DNA from: Chlorops oryzae
Taxonomy: Eukaryota; Arthropoda; Insecta; Diptera; Chloropidae
Direction of reading: 5' to 3'
Length of the DNA stretch: 64,000 nt
NCBI GenBank assembly: GCA_020466095.1
Contig: CM035806.1
Span: 54,813,916-54,877,915 of the forward strand
Positions 6,074-61,429 of this stretch are shown here, piece after piece. Below the pieces are notes generated by a model. That model had not been told where the DNA came from, did no database searches, and saw only the letters and a list, made by a program, of their open reading frames with translations. Each line of letters opens with the position of its first letter. Position 1 is the first letter of the stretch. A program made the position numbers and the translations under genes.

Positions 6074-6112
6074 CACAGTGGATCGACTCCATACATTTCA
6101 TAGGCAGAAATA
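6074..6112 (+). mobile_element. Solitary Transib-like end with 23-RSS-type layout
   Basis: Heptamer CACAGTG (6074-6080), then 23 bp, then GCAGAAATA (6104-6112). The following sequence aligns without gaps to the left end of the complete Transib-like element at 9418, including CCATACATTT in the spacer. CACAGTGGATCGA also resembles published insect Transib termini. No matching opposite end or 5-bp duplication was found, so this is a truncated copy or a lone end. Confidence 0.55.
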
Positions 6113-6641
6113 GAATGATTGCAATGAAATTTGGCATGGACGTTTCTTTGCTAATAACTAAGAAAATTGGAAAAAATTTCGAAAATCAAACCACCCCAAA
6201 CCCCCAACCCCCCGCGTAAAGGGGGGGATCCAAATTTCACAATTTTGGAAGCACCAAGTGGAAATTCGAAACAGCTTACTGTTGTCCCCTTTAGTTGTAA
6301 AAATTTACCTTGGTGGTGCTACCCTGCCCACTTTTTCTGTCACGCCCACTCGAAATACAGTAAAAATCGATTATAACGATGTCGAAGGGATCAGCAAAAG
6401 TCCATCCTTATATCCGATAATCGCTATATCCGGTAACAGAAATTTTTTGATATATTTTTTAGGTTTCCACTTTTATTGCATTTTTTAGCTTTATGGTTTA
6501 ATTTGGAACATAAAGTAAATCTTCCAAACAAAAAGAAAATGATTTCTTTAAAATAAAAAGGTAACGAAAATTAAGATTTAACTCTGCATTACATGTGTGT
6601 AGAATGTACACTGTACAAAAAATGTAAGTATTAGGGTGGTC

Positions 6642-7869
6642 CAGGCGCGCAGCCAGGATTTCAATTTGGGGGGGGTTCGCAGAAAATTTTTCTAAATATT
6701 TTTTGTTTTTATTTTCGTAAAAAGCTTACAAAATATATAATTAAAATATATTTACATAAATATTTTAAATTTTTATAAGGTGTACAAAGTAAAAAAAGTA
6801 TTTTCGAAGTATTTCAATTTAAAGTGCAATGTTAAGTCTGCGCTTGCTTTCAGCAAGTTTATCTAGTATGTCCTCTACACTGGGAGTAAGATCTCGATGG
6901 ACGTGGAGGAGTGCTAAGGCATTTAACCTCTGTTCTGTCATTGTAGATCTAAGATAAGTTTTGAGTCGGCGGAGAGTTGAAAACGATCTCTCATTTTCAC
7001 ATGTGGTTATTGGAAGAGTAGCCAAAATAGTTAATAAAATAAAAATATTTGGTAAAATATCTTTTTTACAAAATTTTATAGCGTCAAACACTGTTTTTGG
7101 TCTTTCATTTTTTTCTAAATTATTAATTAATTTATACCAAATAGTGAGCTCCATTTTTGAATCATCAAAATTTTCCTCTAAATCATCTTGATAAAACTGA
7201 AAGAGTTTTTTAAATTTGTCTAAAAAATCAACAACTTTTGCAGTATCGCTTTGAGGAAATAAAACGTGAAAACCAAGAAGAATATCCTTGTGTTTTGAAA
7301 AGCGATTGGTTAAGTTGACAATAAATGCATCCACAAAAGGTAAATAAAGGGAAATACGATAATAATATTCAACACTTTTAGTATGAAAATGTGCTTCGTG
7401 GTCCTGAGAATGTGCGAGCCTAGGTTTTTGCAAAATAAGTCCGCTTGATAAAGCTTGCTTCTCAGCGTTTTTAAACAATTTCTGAAATTCTTCCTCAGCG
7501 TTACTTCTTAAGGTTTGAATATTCTCTAAGCATATATCTGCTAGGACAACAGCATATTTGAGATCAATGTTTCTACCTTGTAAATATTTACATAGAACAA
7601 ATGTGTAACTAAAAACTTGGTTTATACAATGAAGAGATATAAGAAATTCGCCTTTTTGTAAGGGACATTTTAATAAATTAGACTGACTTGACACATTTTG
7701 ATCATTCCAAGAGGAAATTCGGTCAAGAACTAAAATTATTGCATCATAAAACTTAATAAAAGAGTTTGTAGGACGGCGATGTAGAAATGTAAGCTGTGTG
7801 GTGTATTTTTTCCTCAATTTGGGGGGGTTTGAACCCCCAAAACCCCCCCCCCCCCTGGCTGCGCGCCTG
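6642..7869 (-). mobile_element. hAT transposon with intact ends (innermost level)
   Basis: Ends are perfect 16-bp inverted repeats, CAGGCGCGCAGCCAGG, flanked by an exact 8-bp duplication GGGTGGTC (6634-6641 and 7870-7877), diagnostic of the hAT superfamily. Subterminal G-runs (left) and C-runs (right) mirror each other. The 1228-bp element contains one long minus-strand frame for the C-terminal half of a transposase that starts only about 50 bp from the right end. It therefore looks like an internal-deletion derivative of a longer autonomous element. Perfect ends and duplication indicate a recent insertion. Confidence 0.93.
6819..7817 (-). CDS. hAT transposase, C-terminal half
   Basis: An uninterrupted 332-codon frame. 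Near residues 270-310 it contains NERSFSTLRRLKTYLRS followed by LNALALLHVHRD, the hallmark of the hAT C-terminal dimerisation domain, in the style of insect ZMYM1-like/52-kDa-repressor-like transposases. The upstream 260 residues fit the helical RNase H-fold and insertion region; the N-terminal BED zinc finger and first part of the catalytic domain are absent. There is no convincing ATG: the frame opens on a non-ATG codon and continues from the subterminal repeat, so the start is arbitrary. Lack of stops over 1 kb suggests a young insertion. It cannot be an active transposase alone, but the intact dimerisation domain could in principle act as a dominant partner. Confidence 0.85.
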   Translation of the reverse strand: MRKKYTTQLTFLHRRPTNSFIKFYDAIILVLDRISSWNDQNVSSQSNLLKCPLQKGEFLISLHCINQVFSYTFVLCKYLQGRNIDLKYAVVLADICLENIQTLRSNAEEEFQKLFKNAEKQALSSGLILQKPRLAHSQDHEAHFHTKSVEYYYRISLYLPFVDAFIVNLTNRFSKHKDILLGFHVLFPQSDTAKVVDFLDKFKKLFQFYQDDLEENFDDSKMELTIWYKLINNLEKNERPKTVFDAIKFCKKDILPNIFILLTILATLPITTCENERSFSTLRRLKTYLRSTMTEQRLNALALLHVHRDLTPSVEDILDKLAESKRRLNIAL

Positions 7870-8420
7870 GGGTGGTCCTTATTTTAAAAATTTTTTTATT
7901 TCATGAAAATTTTACATACAATTTTACATTTTTCGACTTTGAGCACAATTTTTTACTATTAATTTAAAGGTTTGTATGTTATTTTTGATTTCATAGTAAA
8001 AAATGACGTTTTAGTAACACAAAAGCCTTAAAAATTTTAAGATGGCTCAAACCATATTTGAGGAATATGATTTTCAAAACATCAATGGTATTTAAAAATT
8101 TAATACTTAAAAACCCCTTGGATTTTTGTACTGCTGTAATTTTATAATATATTTTATGAAACTAACAAATTTTTATATGGAGTTTATATGGAAAATTTTG
8201 AACGCTGGTAGCGACCCCCAAATGTCATTTACAAAATTTGAAAAAAATACAGAAATATTTTCTCGGGGTATATATTAAAATGACGGGGTGTCGCGCGAAA
8301 AATAAAAAAATTTTTTAAATAAGGACCACCCTAGTATGTATGTATATTAATTTTAGGCATTCTCTTTCATAAAAGTCATTAATTTTTGATTGTTTCGTAA
8401 ACTTTTTTAAAAATCGACTC

Positions 8421-8828
8421 TCAGTTCAGTTTTTTACCACAAGTTCCAGTCATATTTGCTGCTACCATGACAGTTAAACGCTCTTTTGACATTTTTCCAT
8501 TTGAACATTTTTCACCCTTAAATTTTAGCGATCGGCAAGGTGTCATATTGAAAACCAGACCGGTTTCATCGGCATTGAAAATATCATCGGCCGCAAAGTC
8601 TGCTCTCAATGAAGGCCATACAACATCTAACCAATTTTCAGACACTCCTTGGGTCGCTGCGGAGCTTTCGAGGTACAATTTACCGAAAACCATGTGATGG
8701 CGTAAGCGAAAGCGATGTATCCATGAGGAGTTGCAATGAAATTCTATCCCCATATTTTTTGCTGGATCGTTACCTTTTTCTTGCAAAATAGGTCCGCTGA
8801 TTGGAATATTGAGACGGAATGGAATCAA
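8421..8828 (-). pseudogene. pogo/Tigger transposase fragment
   Basis: A 135-codon frame matching the CENP-B/Tigger family. Residues about 5-55 contain ISGPILQEKG and a WIHRFRLRHH motif of the second helix-turn-helix (CENP-B-type) domain. Residues about 80-95 contain DIFNADETG, which carries the first catalytic aspartate of the DDE domain. KGEKCSNGKMSKERLTVMV follows, the conserved strand region. The frame stops after about 45 further residues, so the second aspartate and the third acidic residue are missing, as is the N-terminal DNA-binding helix-turn-helix. It is the remnant of the transposase of the enclosing element 6358-9068, in which the 5' end of the gene faces the right terminus. Confidence 0.88.
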
Positions 8829-9417
8829 TATTCTTTTGCGTTGGCGCGCGTAAGAAGAAAATATTTTTTTGTATCGTTATAACCGATACGAAAAACGAAA
8901 ATTTTGTGCAAAATTACATCGTTATAAGCAATAATCGTTATATTCGATATTCGTTGCATCCGGTTTATCGTTACATGTAATTGCATAGCGAACCAAACTT
9001 TATCTAAAATGTTCATCGCTATAACCGATAATCGTTATAAGCAGTATCGTTATAAACGATTTTTACTGTAACTAAATATAGCACTTATGATCCCCCTGAA
9101 AATCGTATGAAAATTTCAAAAACACTGGTGAACGTTATTTAGTTGTAACACTTTAATATAAAAACTAAAAAGTAAAAAAAAAACCAGCCCAGCCTTGCCA
9201 AAGAAAAAAATTTGAAATGGCAAAAACACTGAAATTCATGGTATAAAATTACACCAATTCCATACGTTTTAGACGAAAATTTAGAACATTTTTGAAAAAC
9301 GGGTGAATAACAGAAAGTAGCAGTTGATTTTTACATAGATATTCTGAAAGATAATAAAGTATTCTTTGATATTTTATAAGAATCAAGGTGGGACCTGATG
9401 GGACTCACAACACATCG

Positions 9418-9456
9418 CACAGTGTAACGAGCCCATACATTTTAGGAACAAAAATA
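9418..9456 (+). promoter_or_regulatory. 23-RSS-like left end of the Transib-like element
   Basis: Heptamer CACAGTG at 9418-9424, a spacer of exactly 23 bp (9425-9447), and nonamer ACAAAAATA at 9448-9456. The heptamer equals the consensus V(D)J recombination-signal heptamer. The spacing is shared by the second copy at 6074. Confidence 0.8.
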
Positions 9457-10268
9457 GAAGGAGTGATCGCACAATAATGAAACTTGGCATCAGTTAGGGT
9501 TTTGACCCAATTTAGAAAAAAAAAAAACAAAGTTTCATCAAAATCGGACACGCCCATCGCCCACCCCCCATACAACTCAAAACCTTTTTTTTCTTACCAA
9601 ATGGGATGTATGCAACGAATATGGTTGAAATTTAGTACAGTGCTTCATTACGGTTAAATACAGACCTCTGACAGATTTTATCAAAATCGGCCACGCCCAC
9701 TGCCCACTCCCGATACAACCCAAAACATTTTTTTTCCGCCAAATGTTGTTTAGGCATGGTGGCAAAATGGCGAAAACGGATTGATGCGCATCGAACCGCA
9801 TATTGAGACATACCTTTTTTGAAAGGTATTTTATCAAGGAATAATATATGAAAAAATTAGGACCAGAATCAACTGTGCTTAGTGTTTCCGGTGTTCGCAA
9901 GCCCACATATTTGGGGGTTTTTTCTTGGTTCATTGGGTAACATCGATTTTCGAAGAAAATCCCCACTATTCAAACAAAAAAAGTTCTTCTTTTAAGATGT
10001 GAAAAAATAAAATATAAAAAACCCTTTAAAATGGTGCAAAAAGTTTTAAAATCGGATAACGGAAAAAAAAGTTATGGCGTTTTAAATTTGCAGGTCACAA
10101 AAGCTAAATATAGCAATAAAAGACGCATATCAAAAATGTTTTGACTTTGACTATGCCTTGTAACCACATTAATTATTATTTTCCAAAACCTTTTGAGTTC
10201 TTCGTTAATTATAGTATATGTAACAAATCTGCATCAAAAAAATTTCAAATCTCGTACTTCGATTTTTT

Positions 10269-10296
10269 CCTTTTTGTCCCTCTTCGTTACACTGTG
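10269..10296 (-). promoter_or_regulatory. 12-RSS-like right end of the Transib-like element
   Basis: Read on the minus strand from 10296: heptamer CACAGTG (10296-10290), a 12-bp spacer (10289-10278), then ACAAAAAGG (10277-10269). With the 23-type left end this gives an asymmetric 12/23 pair. Confidence 0.8.
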
Positions 10297-10910
10297 CATC
10301 GGCTACAGAAAACGTGTAATTTATGGGCCTTACCCTATATTTTTACCAAGTTTAAAGTCGTGTTAAAAAATTAGTTTATTGTAAAATTGCGAATTTTAAT
10401 TTTTTGTCAAAAATTTCTAAAATTATATAAAACAAAATTAGCTTCGATATGTAAAAGAATGGATTTATAGGAATTTTTTTGCTGAAGTTCTCAGAACATA
10501 CAATTTGATAAAAAAAAAAAACCTTCACTTTGAAGCAGCGCAGAATCAATAAAAATTATTTGTTTAAATTAATAATCCGCATTTATACTACTGGAAGCTT
10601 TTCTTTTACAATGATACCCAATTCGATAGGTTTCGTCACCATAAAAATTTTTGATTTTTGTCCTCTAGACCTCCCAATGTACGTCGTTCTCTGTTGCTCA
10701 TTTTAATTGGCTTGTTATTTATTGAAGTGAAGAATACACGACGATTGAACATGCATAATCTGACTTTCAAATCGACTATTTTCACACATTGAAGCTCCCA
10801 TATGATTGCAAGCCGCTGCTTTTTGTGTTAAAATTTAAGGAAAATTACAAAATTTTGCATGCTTATAAGCGGGCTGCATATATACATACAAGTATATCCG
10901 AGGAATACTG

Positions 10911-17468: not shown

Positions 17469-18530
17469 ACATTTAATTTAATGTTCAATTTTTTCAATCG
17501 TTCGCATTGCTTCGAAATGTTAACATGTGGTTCGTCACTCAGAGTTCGCCAGACATCAGTTTAATCGAACATGCAACATGTATGAGACATTTTGTATCAG
17601 ATATTCTTCAGTTCCAAACATGTGTGCTAAAAGTGAGTTTTATGTTAAGTTAACAGCAAATGTTTTCGTAACAGCAGCTTGGCAATGTTAAGTTTATGAG
17701 TTGTTGCCACATTTCAGCTTATGTTTCTTTTGGCTTTGGTTGGCACTTCTTTTTGGTGCCTTTCCGTCGTGCATTTTGTGTTTTGTTATTTGAATTTTTC
17801 TGTTTCTGTTTCTGTTTCTGTTTCTTTGGGAATTCTCTATGACTCTACTGAATGCGTTTTCTGAGTTATGGCGTTCGGTTCATAAATGAGCTGAGGTTCT
17901 GTTTTTATTTTTCGCTCTTTGCTTTTTATTTTCTTTTTTTCCTTTTTTTGCCATAACAATTTCTTAAGTGATGAATTTGTAAACAATTCATGCAAGCAGC
18001 ACCAGCGGAAGTTGTGTATACAATATACTTATATTTTTTTTATTATTTATTTATTATTTTTTGAAAATATTTTTTAAATTCAGTTTTGCCTTGTCACAGT
18101 GTATCTACCTAAATATTTAGAATTCAAAGTCTCGCACTTCGGTTTGAATATTAGGAGCGATAGCCACTTTGACGGCAGATTGTGCTTAGATAAAAATGCG
18201 CATTTCCAAAGGGAGAAGAAATTGTGCAGTACGTACATTATAATTTAAATCCATCAAAAGCGGGCACTGATGGTCAATAGAATTGCGTGTCCACTAATGA
18301 AAATTGTCCAAGCATACGAGTTCCAGTGCAAAAAAAAAAAAAAAAAAAAAAAAAAACTTTTTTTTTTTGTACTTTTGCGTGCTTTAAAGTTGAGACACTT
18401 TACGCGTCTGTCATAGAAAATACCATGAAGCCTCTCACAGACATTAAGTAATGGTTAGACCAATGAGATTCTTTTGCTTTGGAACCTATGGGCCGAAAAG
18501 AACCCACGAATATTGGGCTCATTTTTCTGG
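17469..18530. other. Gene-free stretch
   Basis: AT-rich, with a (TTTCTG)n run at about 17798-17824 and an A28 tract followed by a T-tract at 18331-18368, which forms a perfect A/T palindrome. No gene recognised. Confidence 0.4.
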
Positions 18531-48832: not shown

Positions 48833-49690
48833 TATACCCGTCACACTCTGTGTTGAGGGTATATTGCGTTTGTGTGGTTGTGTGTAACACCTAGAACCAG
48901 TCGAGATAGACCATACAAAATGTATATAGAAATGATCAGCGTCACCAGGAGATTCGATTTAGCCATATCCGTCTGTCTGTCTGTCTTGTTGTATACAGTT
49001 TTCTTATCGAAGGAGCTGAGCTATCTCGACGAAATTTGGTACGCGTTCTTACGGGGACATGAGTAAGAACAAGTTCGAGAATGGACCCGATCGGACCATT
49101 TTTAGGGGTACCTCCAGTACTAGGGTCTGTTATGAAAATCACAAAAACTGCTATAAAACCGATGTTTTTCAAGATATTTTGATGAAATTTGACATTTGAA
49201 CATATTTTAGGCCAATTAATGTGATTTACAAAAATTAGAAAAATGGGCGTGGCAGAAGGGCGTTTTTCGAAAATCGTCTCCCACTCCCGAAACGCCTATG
49301 GGACTTCAACGAAAATTGCCACTTATACTTCCTTTGTTGCCATAAACATAATGCCCAAAAATTTTCTTGATCGGTCCATTATTAAGGGTACCTCCAGCAC
49401 TAGGGTCTGTCACAAAAATCTCAAAACTGCCCCAAAATCTGACTTTTTCCAAATAATTCAATGAAACTTAGAATTTGCGCGTATATTTTATCATCCGATT
49501 AGAATTTAAAAAAATTGGAAAAGTGGCCGTGGCAAAGGGGCGGTTTTCATAAAGAAATTCAACAAAAGTCGGTATATGGGGCCCCTTATGGCCTGAAACA
49601 CCTCTTGATATTAAAAATTATTGGAAGATGTGTGTCTGTGTCGGGTATTCTATTGTCAGGCTTGCCTGACTATAACACCCTTACTTGTTT
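48833..49690 (+). mobile_element. DINE-1/Helentron-type repeat, copy 2
   Basis: Begins TATACCCGTCACA..., contains TTGCGTTTGTGTGG, ATCAGCGTCACCAGGAG and (GTCT)n near 48970-48985. It ends with TGTGTCGGGTATTC, the palindrome GTCAGGCTTGCCTGAC (49655-49670) and CACCCTTACTTGTTT. The 5' ATACCCGNCACA and 3' TGTGTCGGGTAT are the subterminal inverted repeats expected for Helentron-related elements. Non-coding. Flanked on both sides by related sequence (see findings). Confidence 0.8.
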
Positions 49691-58421: not shown

Positions 58422-58515
58422 CCTAACCTAATCTAACCTAACCTAACCTAACCTAACCTAACCTAACCTAACCTAACCTAACCTAAACCTAACCTAACCT
58501 AACCTAACCTAACCT
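58422..58515 (+). repeat. (CCTAA)n tail of the retrotransposon
   Basis: About 18 units of CCTAA, with a TCTAA variant and one extra A near 58487, beginning 90 bp after the ORF2 stop. No poly-A tail is present. The unit equals the complement of the ancestral insect telomere repeat TTAGG. Confidence 0.95.
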
Positions 58516-59210
58516 CTTTGGATAAAGAATATACAGCCCTATTCTAAATGAATATTCCCCGGGAGTTTTTTCCCTCGAAATTTTTCGCCGCGAAAAAAGA
58601 AAGCACTCCAAGCGTCATTCGAGGAAAATATGTGTTGACCTTTGCCGGAAAATGTTTGAAATTCTTGCTCTCTGTATATTCCCTTCCCAGTTTTCTTAGA
58701 ATGGCAGAATTTTTTTCAAATCCCCGTGAATATTGCGAATCGGGTTGATAGAGAAATCTTCTAATGCTTTGTTCTCACAATAGAGGTTAATTTTGGCTGA
58801 GGCTGAGGAGTTCGACAACTAAAAAACGCGCAAGGTATATCATCGAGAATTTGTAAATAAAAATGGAATTTGATTTATTAGATATGTTTAAAGAAGCTGA
58901 AAAAGCCAAAGGAATATTGGAAGCAATAATAGAAGAGCATTGCAATGTCTACAGGAACAAAAAAAGATTAATGGAGCTAATGGTGAAAGCGGCATCACAA
59001 AATTTTCCCGACCTGTGATCAAAAATTACATATCCCAAATACTTGCACTCATTTTCTGCACGTGAAAGCTTCCTGCCAGTGTCGTATTAAATTTTTACCC
59101 CGTTTTTGTACACGGTGTTAGCAAATGTAACTGAAAATTGCAAATGCAACTCTGCGCTAACTTCAGAGTTAAATGTTAACCCAGGGTATATTTTCGGGTT
59201 AGATGATTTT
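58516..59210. other. Stretch with one short reading frame
   Basis: AT-rich sequence between the retrotransposon tail and a Helentron-type repeat. Apart from the 51-codon frame at 58863 nothing is recognised. TGTTAGC, GTTAAC and GGGTTA motifs (59117-59200), continuing beyond the Helentron insertion at 59860, suggest that the repeat sits in another unidentified element. Confidence 0.35.
58863..59018 (+). CDS. Short acidic/basic reading frame, unrecognised
   Basis: 51 codons from ATG 58863 to TGA 59018. The peptide (MEFDLLDMFKEAEKAKGILE, then AIIEEHCNVYRNKK and LMELMVKAASQNFPDL) is rich in E, K, L and A, and reads like a helical segment of a real protein rather than translated AT-rich noise. 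No domain is recognised. It may be the N-terminus or an exon of a transposon protein, or chance. Confidence 0.25.
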   Translation: MEFDLLDMFKEAEKAKGILEAIIEEHCNVYRNKKRLMELMVKAASQNFPDL

Positions 59211-59817
59211 TATACCCGACACACTCTGTGTCGAGGGTATATTGCGTTTGTGTGGTTGTGTGTAACACCCAGAACCAGTCGAGATAGACCATACAAAATA
59301 TATATAGAAATGATCAGCGTCACTAGGAGATTCGATCTAGACATGTCCGTCCGTCTGTATGTCCGTCTGTATGTCCGTCTGTCTGTCGTCTGTCTGTTTG
59401 TATACAGTTTTCTTATCGAAGGAGTTGAGCTATCTTGAAATTTGGTATGCGTGCTCACGGGGACATGAGTAAGAACAATTTCGAGAATGGACCCGATCGG
59501 ACCATTTTTAGTGGGACCTCCAGTACTAGGGTCTGTCACAAAAATCTCAAAACTGCCTCAAAATCAGACTTTTTCGAAATATTTCAATGAAACTTAGAAT
59601 TTGCGCGTATATTTAAGCCTCCGATTAGAATTCCGAAAAATTGGAAAAGTGGGCGTGGCAAAGGGGCGGTTTTCATAAAGAAATTAAACAAAAGTCGGTA
59701 TATGGGGCCCCTATGGCCTTAAACAACTCCTGATATTAAAAATTATTTAAAGATGTGTGTCTGTGTCGGGTATTCTATTGTCAGGCTCGCCCGACTATAA
59801 CACCCTTACTTGTTTTT
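59211..59817 (+). mobile_element. DINE-1/Helentron-type repeat, copy 3 (internally deleted)
   Basis: 5' hairpin TATACCCGACACA..., GTCY/GTCTGTAT microsatellite (59346-59400), 3' TGTGTCGGGTAT and palindrome GTCAGGCTCGCCCGAC (one mismatch). At 607 bp it is about 260 bp shorter than copies 2 and 4, lacking the block between the two GGTACCTCCAGTACTAGGG-type repeats. This suggests recombination between these internal repeats. Confidence 0.8.
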
Positions 59818-60553
59818 TATAAGCGTTTTGACATTTGTAACCATGGGTTTCGCCGATAACCCTAACCCAGCCGAATGAGAACATAGCAGTTTTTTTCTTA
59901 TTTAGAGGGTATTTTAGGGTGCTCTCGTCGCACTGTGTAGGAACATTCTTCAAGGGAACGAGTTTCGAGACCTTTGAGAGATTTTTGTTCGATTATTTTC
60001 AACGCATTTTTGTCGTCTTGAGGGAACTCCGTACCTAACTGATGAGAAAAATTAAAATAAAATTCAAATAAACGAACAGATAAATATCAAATCATTGTTG
60101 CTTAACTCTCAAATGACTGACATTAATTTCATTATTTTCGAATCAACAATTGCTTCCGTAAACACTTCGCGAGACCAGTTTTTTTTTTTTAAATATTTTC
60201 AAAGAGATCTCCCAGCAGACATCTCCAGTCGAATAACAATAGAGATGAACACTCAAATGACAATTGAAATCCATATCTTGATAATATTTTAGTCCATTTT
60301 CTGCGTCCAGATCTTGGTCAAAATTTTCTCCCTTCACTCAGAGTGATGGAAGTTGTTTTCGTATCGGAATTCTTTTCATGAGCTTAATTCTTTTTTTCTA
60401 AACCGATTGCACTGCTTTGTTGTGCCATTGCACCGAACGAAATGGCTTCCATTGTTCGCATTTTGTGATACTTTCTTTTCCATTCGCCTTTTTAAATCAG
60501 TTTCGGTCACATTCTATTTATGAGGGCGCTCTGAATTGTGAACTCACTTTCAT
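59818..60553. other. Gene-free stretch between two Helentron-type repeats
   Basis: AT-rich; nothing recognised. Confidence 0.35.
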
Positions 60554-60697
60554 TATACCCGACACACTCTGTGTCGAGGGTATATTGCGTTTGTGTGGTT
60601 GTGTGTAACACCCAGAACCAGTCGATATAGACCATACAAAATATATATAGAAATGATCAGCGTCACCAGGAGATTCGATTTAGACATGTCCGTCCGT

Positions 60698-60729
<32 letters not shown>

Positions 60730-61429
60730 ATACAGTTATCTTATCGAAGGAGTTGAGCTATCTCGACAAAATTTGGTGTGCGTGCTCACGGCGACATGAG
60801 TAAGAACAAGTTCGAGAATGGACCCGATCGGACCATTTTTAGGGGTACCGCCAGTACTAGGGTCTGTTATGAAAATCACAAAAACTGCTCTAAAACCGAA
60901 GTTTTTCAAGATATTTTGATGAAAGTTGATATTTGATCATGTTTAAAGGCTAGTAATATGATTCCCAAAAATTGTAAAAGTGGGCGTGGCAGAAGGGAGT
61001 TTTTCGAATATTGTCTCTTACACCCGAAATTCAAATGGGACTTGAACGAAATTTGGCAGTTATACTTCCTTTGTAGCCATAAACATCCTCTCCAAAAAAA
61101 TTTTTGATAGGTCCATTATTAAGGGTACCTCCAGTACTAGGGTCTGTCACAAAAATCTCAAAATTGCCCCAAAATCGGATTTTTTTGAGATATTCCACTG
61201 AAACTTAGAATTTGAGCGTATATTAAGGCCTACGATTAGAATTCCAAAAAAATTGGAAAAGTGGGCGTGGCAAAAGGGCGGTTTTCATAAAGAAATTCAA
61301 CAAATGTCAGTATATGGGGCCCGTAATTGCCTTAAACACCTCTTGATATTAAAAATTATTTGAACATGTGTGTCTGTGTCGGGTATTCTATTGTCAGGCT
61401 CGCCTGACTATAACACCCTTACTTGTTTT
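60554..61429 (+). mobile_element. DINE-1/Helentron-type repeat, copy 4
   Basis: Full-length: 5' hairpin TATACCCGACACA..., (GTCT)n with seven or more units (60690-60726), two internal GGTACCNCCAGTACTAGGG-type repeats, 3' TGTGTCGGGTAT, perfect palindrome GTCAGGCTCGCCTGAC, and end CACCCTTACTTGTTTT. Same orientation as copies 1-3. Confidence 0.82.

Follow-up and report, generated by a model that had tools for sequence, protein, structure and literature searches.

A Transib-like non-autonomous element from Chlorops oryzae with a 12/23-like arrangement of heptamers and nonamer-like boxes at its ends

The window (the whole 64 kb stretch of DNA that was analysed) contains a Transib-like element of 879 bp at positions 9418-10296, bounded by inverted termini and a target site duplication (TSD). 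A related left end is found at 6074. The features are as follows:

9413..9417, + strand: left TSD, CATCG, read from the sequence
9418..10296, no strand assigned: Transib-like non-autonomous element, 879 bp, with terminal inverted repeats (TIRs), a TSD and ORFs without Pfam match
9418..9430, + strand: left 13-bp TIR, CACAGTGTAACGA, with the heptamer at 9418-9424
9448..9456, + strand: left nonamer-like box, ACAAAAATA, separated from the heptamer by a 23-bp spacer
9533..9593, + strand: copy 1 of an internal 61-bp direct repeat (copy 2 at 9676-9736; 87%)
10269..10277, - strand: right nonamer-like box, ACAAAAAGG, separated from the heptamer by a 12-bp spacer
10284..10296, - strand: right 13-bp TIR, CACAGTGTAACGA, with the heptamer at 10290-10296
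10297..10301, + strand: right TSD, CATCG, read from the sequence
9580-9969, 9941-10141, 10120-10371, 9408-9593 and 9635-9856: ORFs of the element or overlapping it, without Pfam match
6074..6137, + strand: related left end belonging to another Transib-like element, which is incomplete (identity 73% across 75 alignment columns)

Read directly, the whole of 9413-10301 consists of CATCG, the 879-bp element and CATCG. The TIRs are 13 bp long and perfect, and start with CACAGTG; an inverted-repeat search scored the arms as 14 bp rather than 13, because the adjoining TSD bases pair too. From its outer edge inwards, the left end is made up of CATCG, CACAGTG, 23 bp and ACAAAAATA, while the right end has its CATCG flank, the reverse complement of CACAGTG, 12 bp and ACAAAAAGG. 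The two boxes each match ACAAAAACC at seven of nine positions, and all of its first seven letters are matched by both. The sequence-only reading had described CACAGTG at both ends, spacings of 23 bp (left) and 12 bp (right), 7/9 nonamers and a perfect 5-bp CATCG duplication around the element, and was accurate on each of these points. Past the 13-bp TIR, the left and right ends are dissimilar. The motif CACGCCC is present in both copies of the 61-bp repeat, and a single further occurrence lies at 6341, within the second (6074) element.

The ORF list for the window contained at least 219 ORFs of at least 60 amino acids after a complexity filter, and 20 of these were scanned against Pfam. None of the five listed ORFs in or overlapping the 879-bp element (62-130 amino acids) had a Pfam match. 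Matches were obtained for two of the 20 scanned ORFs, one to a hAT and one to a Tc5-type domain; no RAG1-type or Transib transposase domain was found among the 20 ORFs scanned of the at least 219 listed. The marks of the Transib superfamily that could be read at the locus were the 5-bp TSD, with CATCG on both sides, and the CAC heptamer at the inverted termini, with CACAGTG inside the perfect 13-bp TIR. It is the termini and the TSD, and these alone, that place the element in Transib, and the earlier description of it as Transib-like held for the CACAGTG ends, the 13-bp TIR and the 5-bp TSD, but gained no transposase from the scanned ORFs. Since no recognisable protein is encoded, the element is best read as non-autonomous. 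On its sequence features, 9418-10296 is very probably a non-coding Transib that was inserted by a Transib transposase acting in trans. It might instead belong to a different cut-and-paste superfamily with CAC-type ends, a reading left some room by the lack of a transposase among the 20 scanned ORFs with which to classify the element; however, the exact CACAGTG termini and the perfect 5-bp TSD fit Transib, and we regard such an origin as very improbable. The CAC/CAG-ended CACTA, hAT and Chapaev elements make duplications of 3, 8 and 4 bp, respectively.

The boundary was evaluated by pairing all 40 plus-strand with all 41 minus-strand CACNNTG sites at distances of 80-6000 bp. The pair 9418/10296 alone reached at least 4/5 TSD bases together with at least 9/13 TIR bases. 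The only other pair returned was 6074 with 10296, which had 11/13 TIR bases but only 2/5 TSD bases. As a transposon boundary, 9418-10296 is thus beyond chance.

Several other repeats occupy the same region. A Tc5/pogo-type element at 6356-9070 has 25-base inverted arms (96%) with TA at both ends, begins some 280 bp inward of the incomplete Transib-like end at 6074, and contains an ORF fragment (8424-8876, minus strand) with a Tc5-type DNA-binding domain. Nested in it is a hAT gene fragment (6641-7870) that lies mostly between 17-base perfect inverted arms; the hAT ORF (6822-7883, minus strand) has a hAT dimerisation domain, and a second pair of arms, of 35 bases (94%), is found at 7867-8334. 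A protein search with the hAT gene gave 137 matches. Among the 120 listed, most were unnamed, the best named ones were from a tick (40% identity) and Diabrotica beetles (35-39%), and the lower named ones were from aphids and other beetles, then a brachiopod and a clam. On these matches, the host is likely to be an arthropod. Farther along the window, 48857-49460, 59091-59560 and 60542-60936 appear by eye to be copies of one repeat family, with approximate limits, sharing a near-identical frame beginning GYIAFVWLCVTPRTSR as well as simple repeats of the TCCGTCTG type. A short CCTAA run, TTAGG on the other strand, is present at 58428-58513; TTAGG is a common insect telomere unit. Low-complexity stretches at about 20-21, 26-27, 33.4-34.8 and 41.6-42.8 kb contain long open frames in which S, L, Y, P, I, V and R predominate.

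The sequence at 6074, CACAGTGGATCGA, is 73% identical to the left end of the 879-bp element over 75 alignment columns. Compared with the end at 9418, it has all seven bases of the heptamer and four of the following six TIR bases, and retains CCATACATTT; after a diverged stretch, 10 of the 12 bases from +23 are common to both ends (GCAGAAATAGAA against ACAAAAATAGAA). A right end for this element was sought at 6200-30000, presuming an AAAAG duplication and requiring at least 14/18 over TIR plus TSD, and none was found in that range. Nor did the window yield a second right end of the type seen in the 879-bp element, and the 12-bp side therefore rests on one sequence. Further TIR sites matching at 11/13 bases are present in the window at 18095, 46939 and 59937. 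These were rejected as element ends, as no partner was found for them at the TSD and TIR thresholds of the boundary test; past the TIR, 18095 and 46939 bear no resemblance by eye to the 879-bp element.

Beyond the window, exact left-end patterns had no matches in the viral contigs or the prokaryote genome contigs searched. A 14-base right-end pattern matched 23 viral contigs, but BLAST of the 879-bp element against them gave 40 rows at 20 loci, the longest of 22 bases and the best with an E value of 0.51, and no row in L003, L012 or L013; we consider these chance matches. The TIR strings CACAGTGTAACGA and CACAGTGGATCG were absent from the paper texts searched, which is a weak negative, as such strings are often given only in figures. 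Four variants of the TIR string matched five papers, whose titles were unrelated.

Among 1292 CAC triplets on both strands of the 64 kb, exact CACAGTG with a 7/9 nonamer occurred once at a spacing of 23 and once at 12, and these two sites are the two ends of the 879-bp element. The heptamer by itself was not clearly enriched, with six occurrences in the window against 2.72 expected, and six or more in 8 of 100 shuffles. With the requirement relaxed to CACNNTG, a 7/9 box at 12 or 23 was found at 4 of the 81 sites, two of which (27415 and 43627) lie outside the element. The window background of a nonamer match of at least 7/9 was 0.0038 per position. From this value, and for one pre-named element in one copy that was itself picked post hoc for its match (a reservation that holds for all probabilities of the RSS-like pair given here), the probability of an exact 12/23 pair, counting both orientations, would be about 3e-5, or 2.6e-4 with a tolerance of ±1 bp; the element's own A-rich background of 0.0086 raises the exact figure to 1.5e-4. 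We also applied dinucleotide shuffling, 8000 times, to 47 bp of subterminal sequence. A 7/9 box fell at the exact place in 0.006 of the shuffles on the left (23) and 0.004 on the right (12), whereas the joint exact match was seen in 0/8000 and the joint match within ±1 bp in 0.0005. With the bar lowered to 6/9, the joint frequencies were 0.003 (exact) and 0.02 (±1 bp). The exact 12/23 arrangement is therefore unlikely to arise from composition, but the comparison is post hoc and concerns a single copy.

These figures bear on whether the two ends might act as a working 12/23 pair, in which the cognate transposase, or RAG1/2, would prefer one 12-like and one 23-like end and the boxes would be candidate binding sites under selection. 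The exact match at both ends, improbable against the window, the element background and the shuffles alike, favours such a pair, as does the A-rich box that the 6074 end retains at +23 after its diverged stretch. On the protein side, Transib transposases are reported to have an NBD-equivalent domain (PMC9435367), section 6 of PMC8355894 argues for a functional role and regards the likeness to an RSS pair as meaningful, and HzTransib together with mouse RAG2 reportedly recombines mouse 12/23 RSSs (PMC8355894). Against it, the right end is a sample of one and the match was chosen after the fact. The box at 6074 matches ACAAAAACC at only 5/9 (3/9 at position +12), and because the first 75 columns are homologous throughout, its conservation need not reflect a nonamer, so the box is not necessarily specially kept. 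Three papers, each a secondary source on the point, also weigh against a pairing preference: RAG1 has no 12/23 preference without RAG2 (PMC8355894), asymmetry of the TIRs probably makes no difference to invertebrate RAG-like complexes (PMC7204232), and spacer lengths vary among Transib ends (PMC6941560). Taken together, we consider a working pair unlikely, though not negligibly so.

We give appreciably more weight, if still with some hesitation, to the possibility that the left box is a general Transib subterminal motif, with the right box falling at +12 by coincidence in A-rich DNA. A 7/9 box anywhere at spacings of 6-31 turned up in 12-14% of shuffled 47-bp stretches and in 7-10% of 87-bp stretches; additional 6/9 nonamer matches are present at +20 and +21 in the right subterminal region of the element; the window yielded no other right end; and Transibs with symmetric spacers of 20-22 bp are included in the list given in PMC8355894 (figure legend). 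However, a 7/9 box at precisely +12 was obtained in only 0.4% of the 47-bp and 0.3% of the 87-bp shuffles, and coincidence is less needed given that Transibs with 12/23 ends have been published. The simplest view of the 12/23-like spacing is that it is a feature previously described for certain Transibs or else, on the right side, a coincidence.

The sequence-only reading had proposed that the asymmetric ends may reflect an ancestral pairing rule, or convergence. With one related end for the 23-bp side and a single sequence for the 12-bp side, the material did not bear this out. The 12/23-like arrangement itself is present in one copy, its 23-bp side partly backed by the end at 6074 and its 12-bp side having no second copy, and overall the earlier interpretation is partly supported. 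That the element family has retained a genuine 12/23 pairing rule, imposed by a RAG2-less transposase of its own, appears to us highly improbable; if it did, the 12/23 rule would be a property of Transib ends and older than RAG2. In vertebrates, the 12/23 preference goes with RAG2. In PMC11844651, RAG2 is described as missing from Transib.

A Transib (RAG1-like DDE) transposase supplied in trans would probably bind the ends of the 879-bp element, recognising the heptamer and TIR and perhaps the A-rich subterminal DNA as well. It would then make a blunt cut at the CACAGTG end, leaving a hairpin on the flank, as has been reported for HzTransib cleavage (PMC6941560), and the element would be inserted with a 5-bp stagger. 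Transibs typically give 5-bp TSDs, according to PMC4411706 and PMC7204232, and TransibSU-1_PM, with identical 13-bp TIRs, is called analogous to known Transibs in the former.

The 12/23 arrangement is already in print among Transibs, and the 879-bp element is one more example. The legend to Fig. 2B of PMC8355894, citing Kapitonov and Jurka (2005), lists Transib5 of D. melanogaster and Transib2, N1, N2 and N3 of A. gambiae as 12/23-asymmetric; PMC9435367 ascribes asymmetric ends to all of its Subgroup I Transibs and both kinds of ends to Subgroup II; and insect Transib MITEs have been catalogued (PMC5199201). Published arguments on whether the 12/23 rule is older than RAG2 already draw on this asymmetric class, to which the element contributes a single copy with clear boundaries, CACAGTG exact at either end, and a 7/9 box at exactly +23 on the left and +12 on the right. 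Should the spacing turn out to be both shared by other copies and required for transposition, the family would make a good natural substrate for that question.

By their published description, Transib5 (Drosophila melanogaster) and Transib2, N1, N2 and N3 (Anopheles gambiae) likewise have heptamer-like ends and nonamer-like boxes, with spacers of 12 or 23 ±1 bp, whereas the element described here has exact CACAGTG at both ends and spacers of exactly 12 and 23. The N-named Anopheles elements are, to judge from the name, presumably non-autonomous, like the 879-bp element. HzTransib (Helicoverpa zea) shares the TIRs and a 5-bp TSD, which is GCTCG there, but is 3518 bp long with a deduced protein of 489 amino acids (PMC1852546), compared to 879 bp and no recognised protein here. 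ProtoRAG/RAGL transposons also have CAC ends, 5-bp TSDs and, in some cases, unequal spacers, but carry RAG1-like and RAG2-like genes, whereas no gene was recognised in the 879-bp element; their spacers, given as 27/31 for ProtoRAG (PMC8355894) and 4/13 for AanRAGL (PMC9435367), are unlike the 12/23 seen here. The V(D)J 12-RSS/23-RSS pair has the same exact heptamer, a nonamer that the boxes match at 7/9, and the same spacers of 12 and 23; it differs in that the sequences described here are the ends of a mobile element, and are RSS-like by sequence only.
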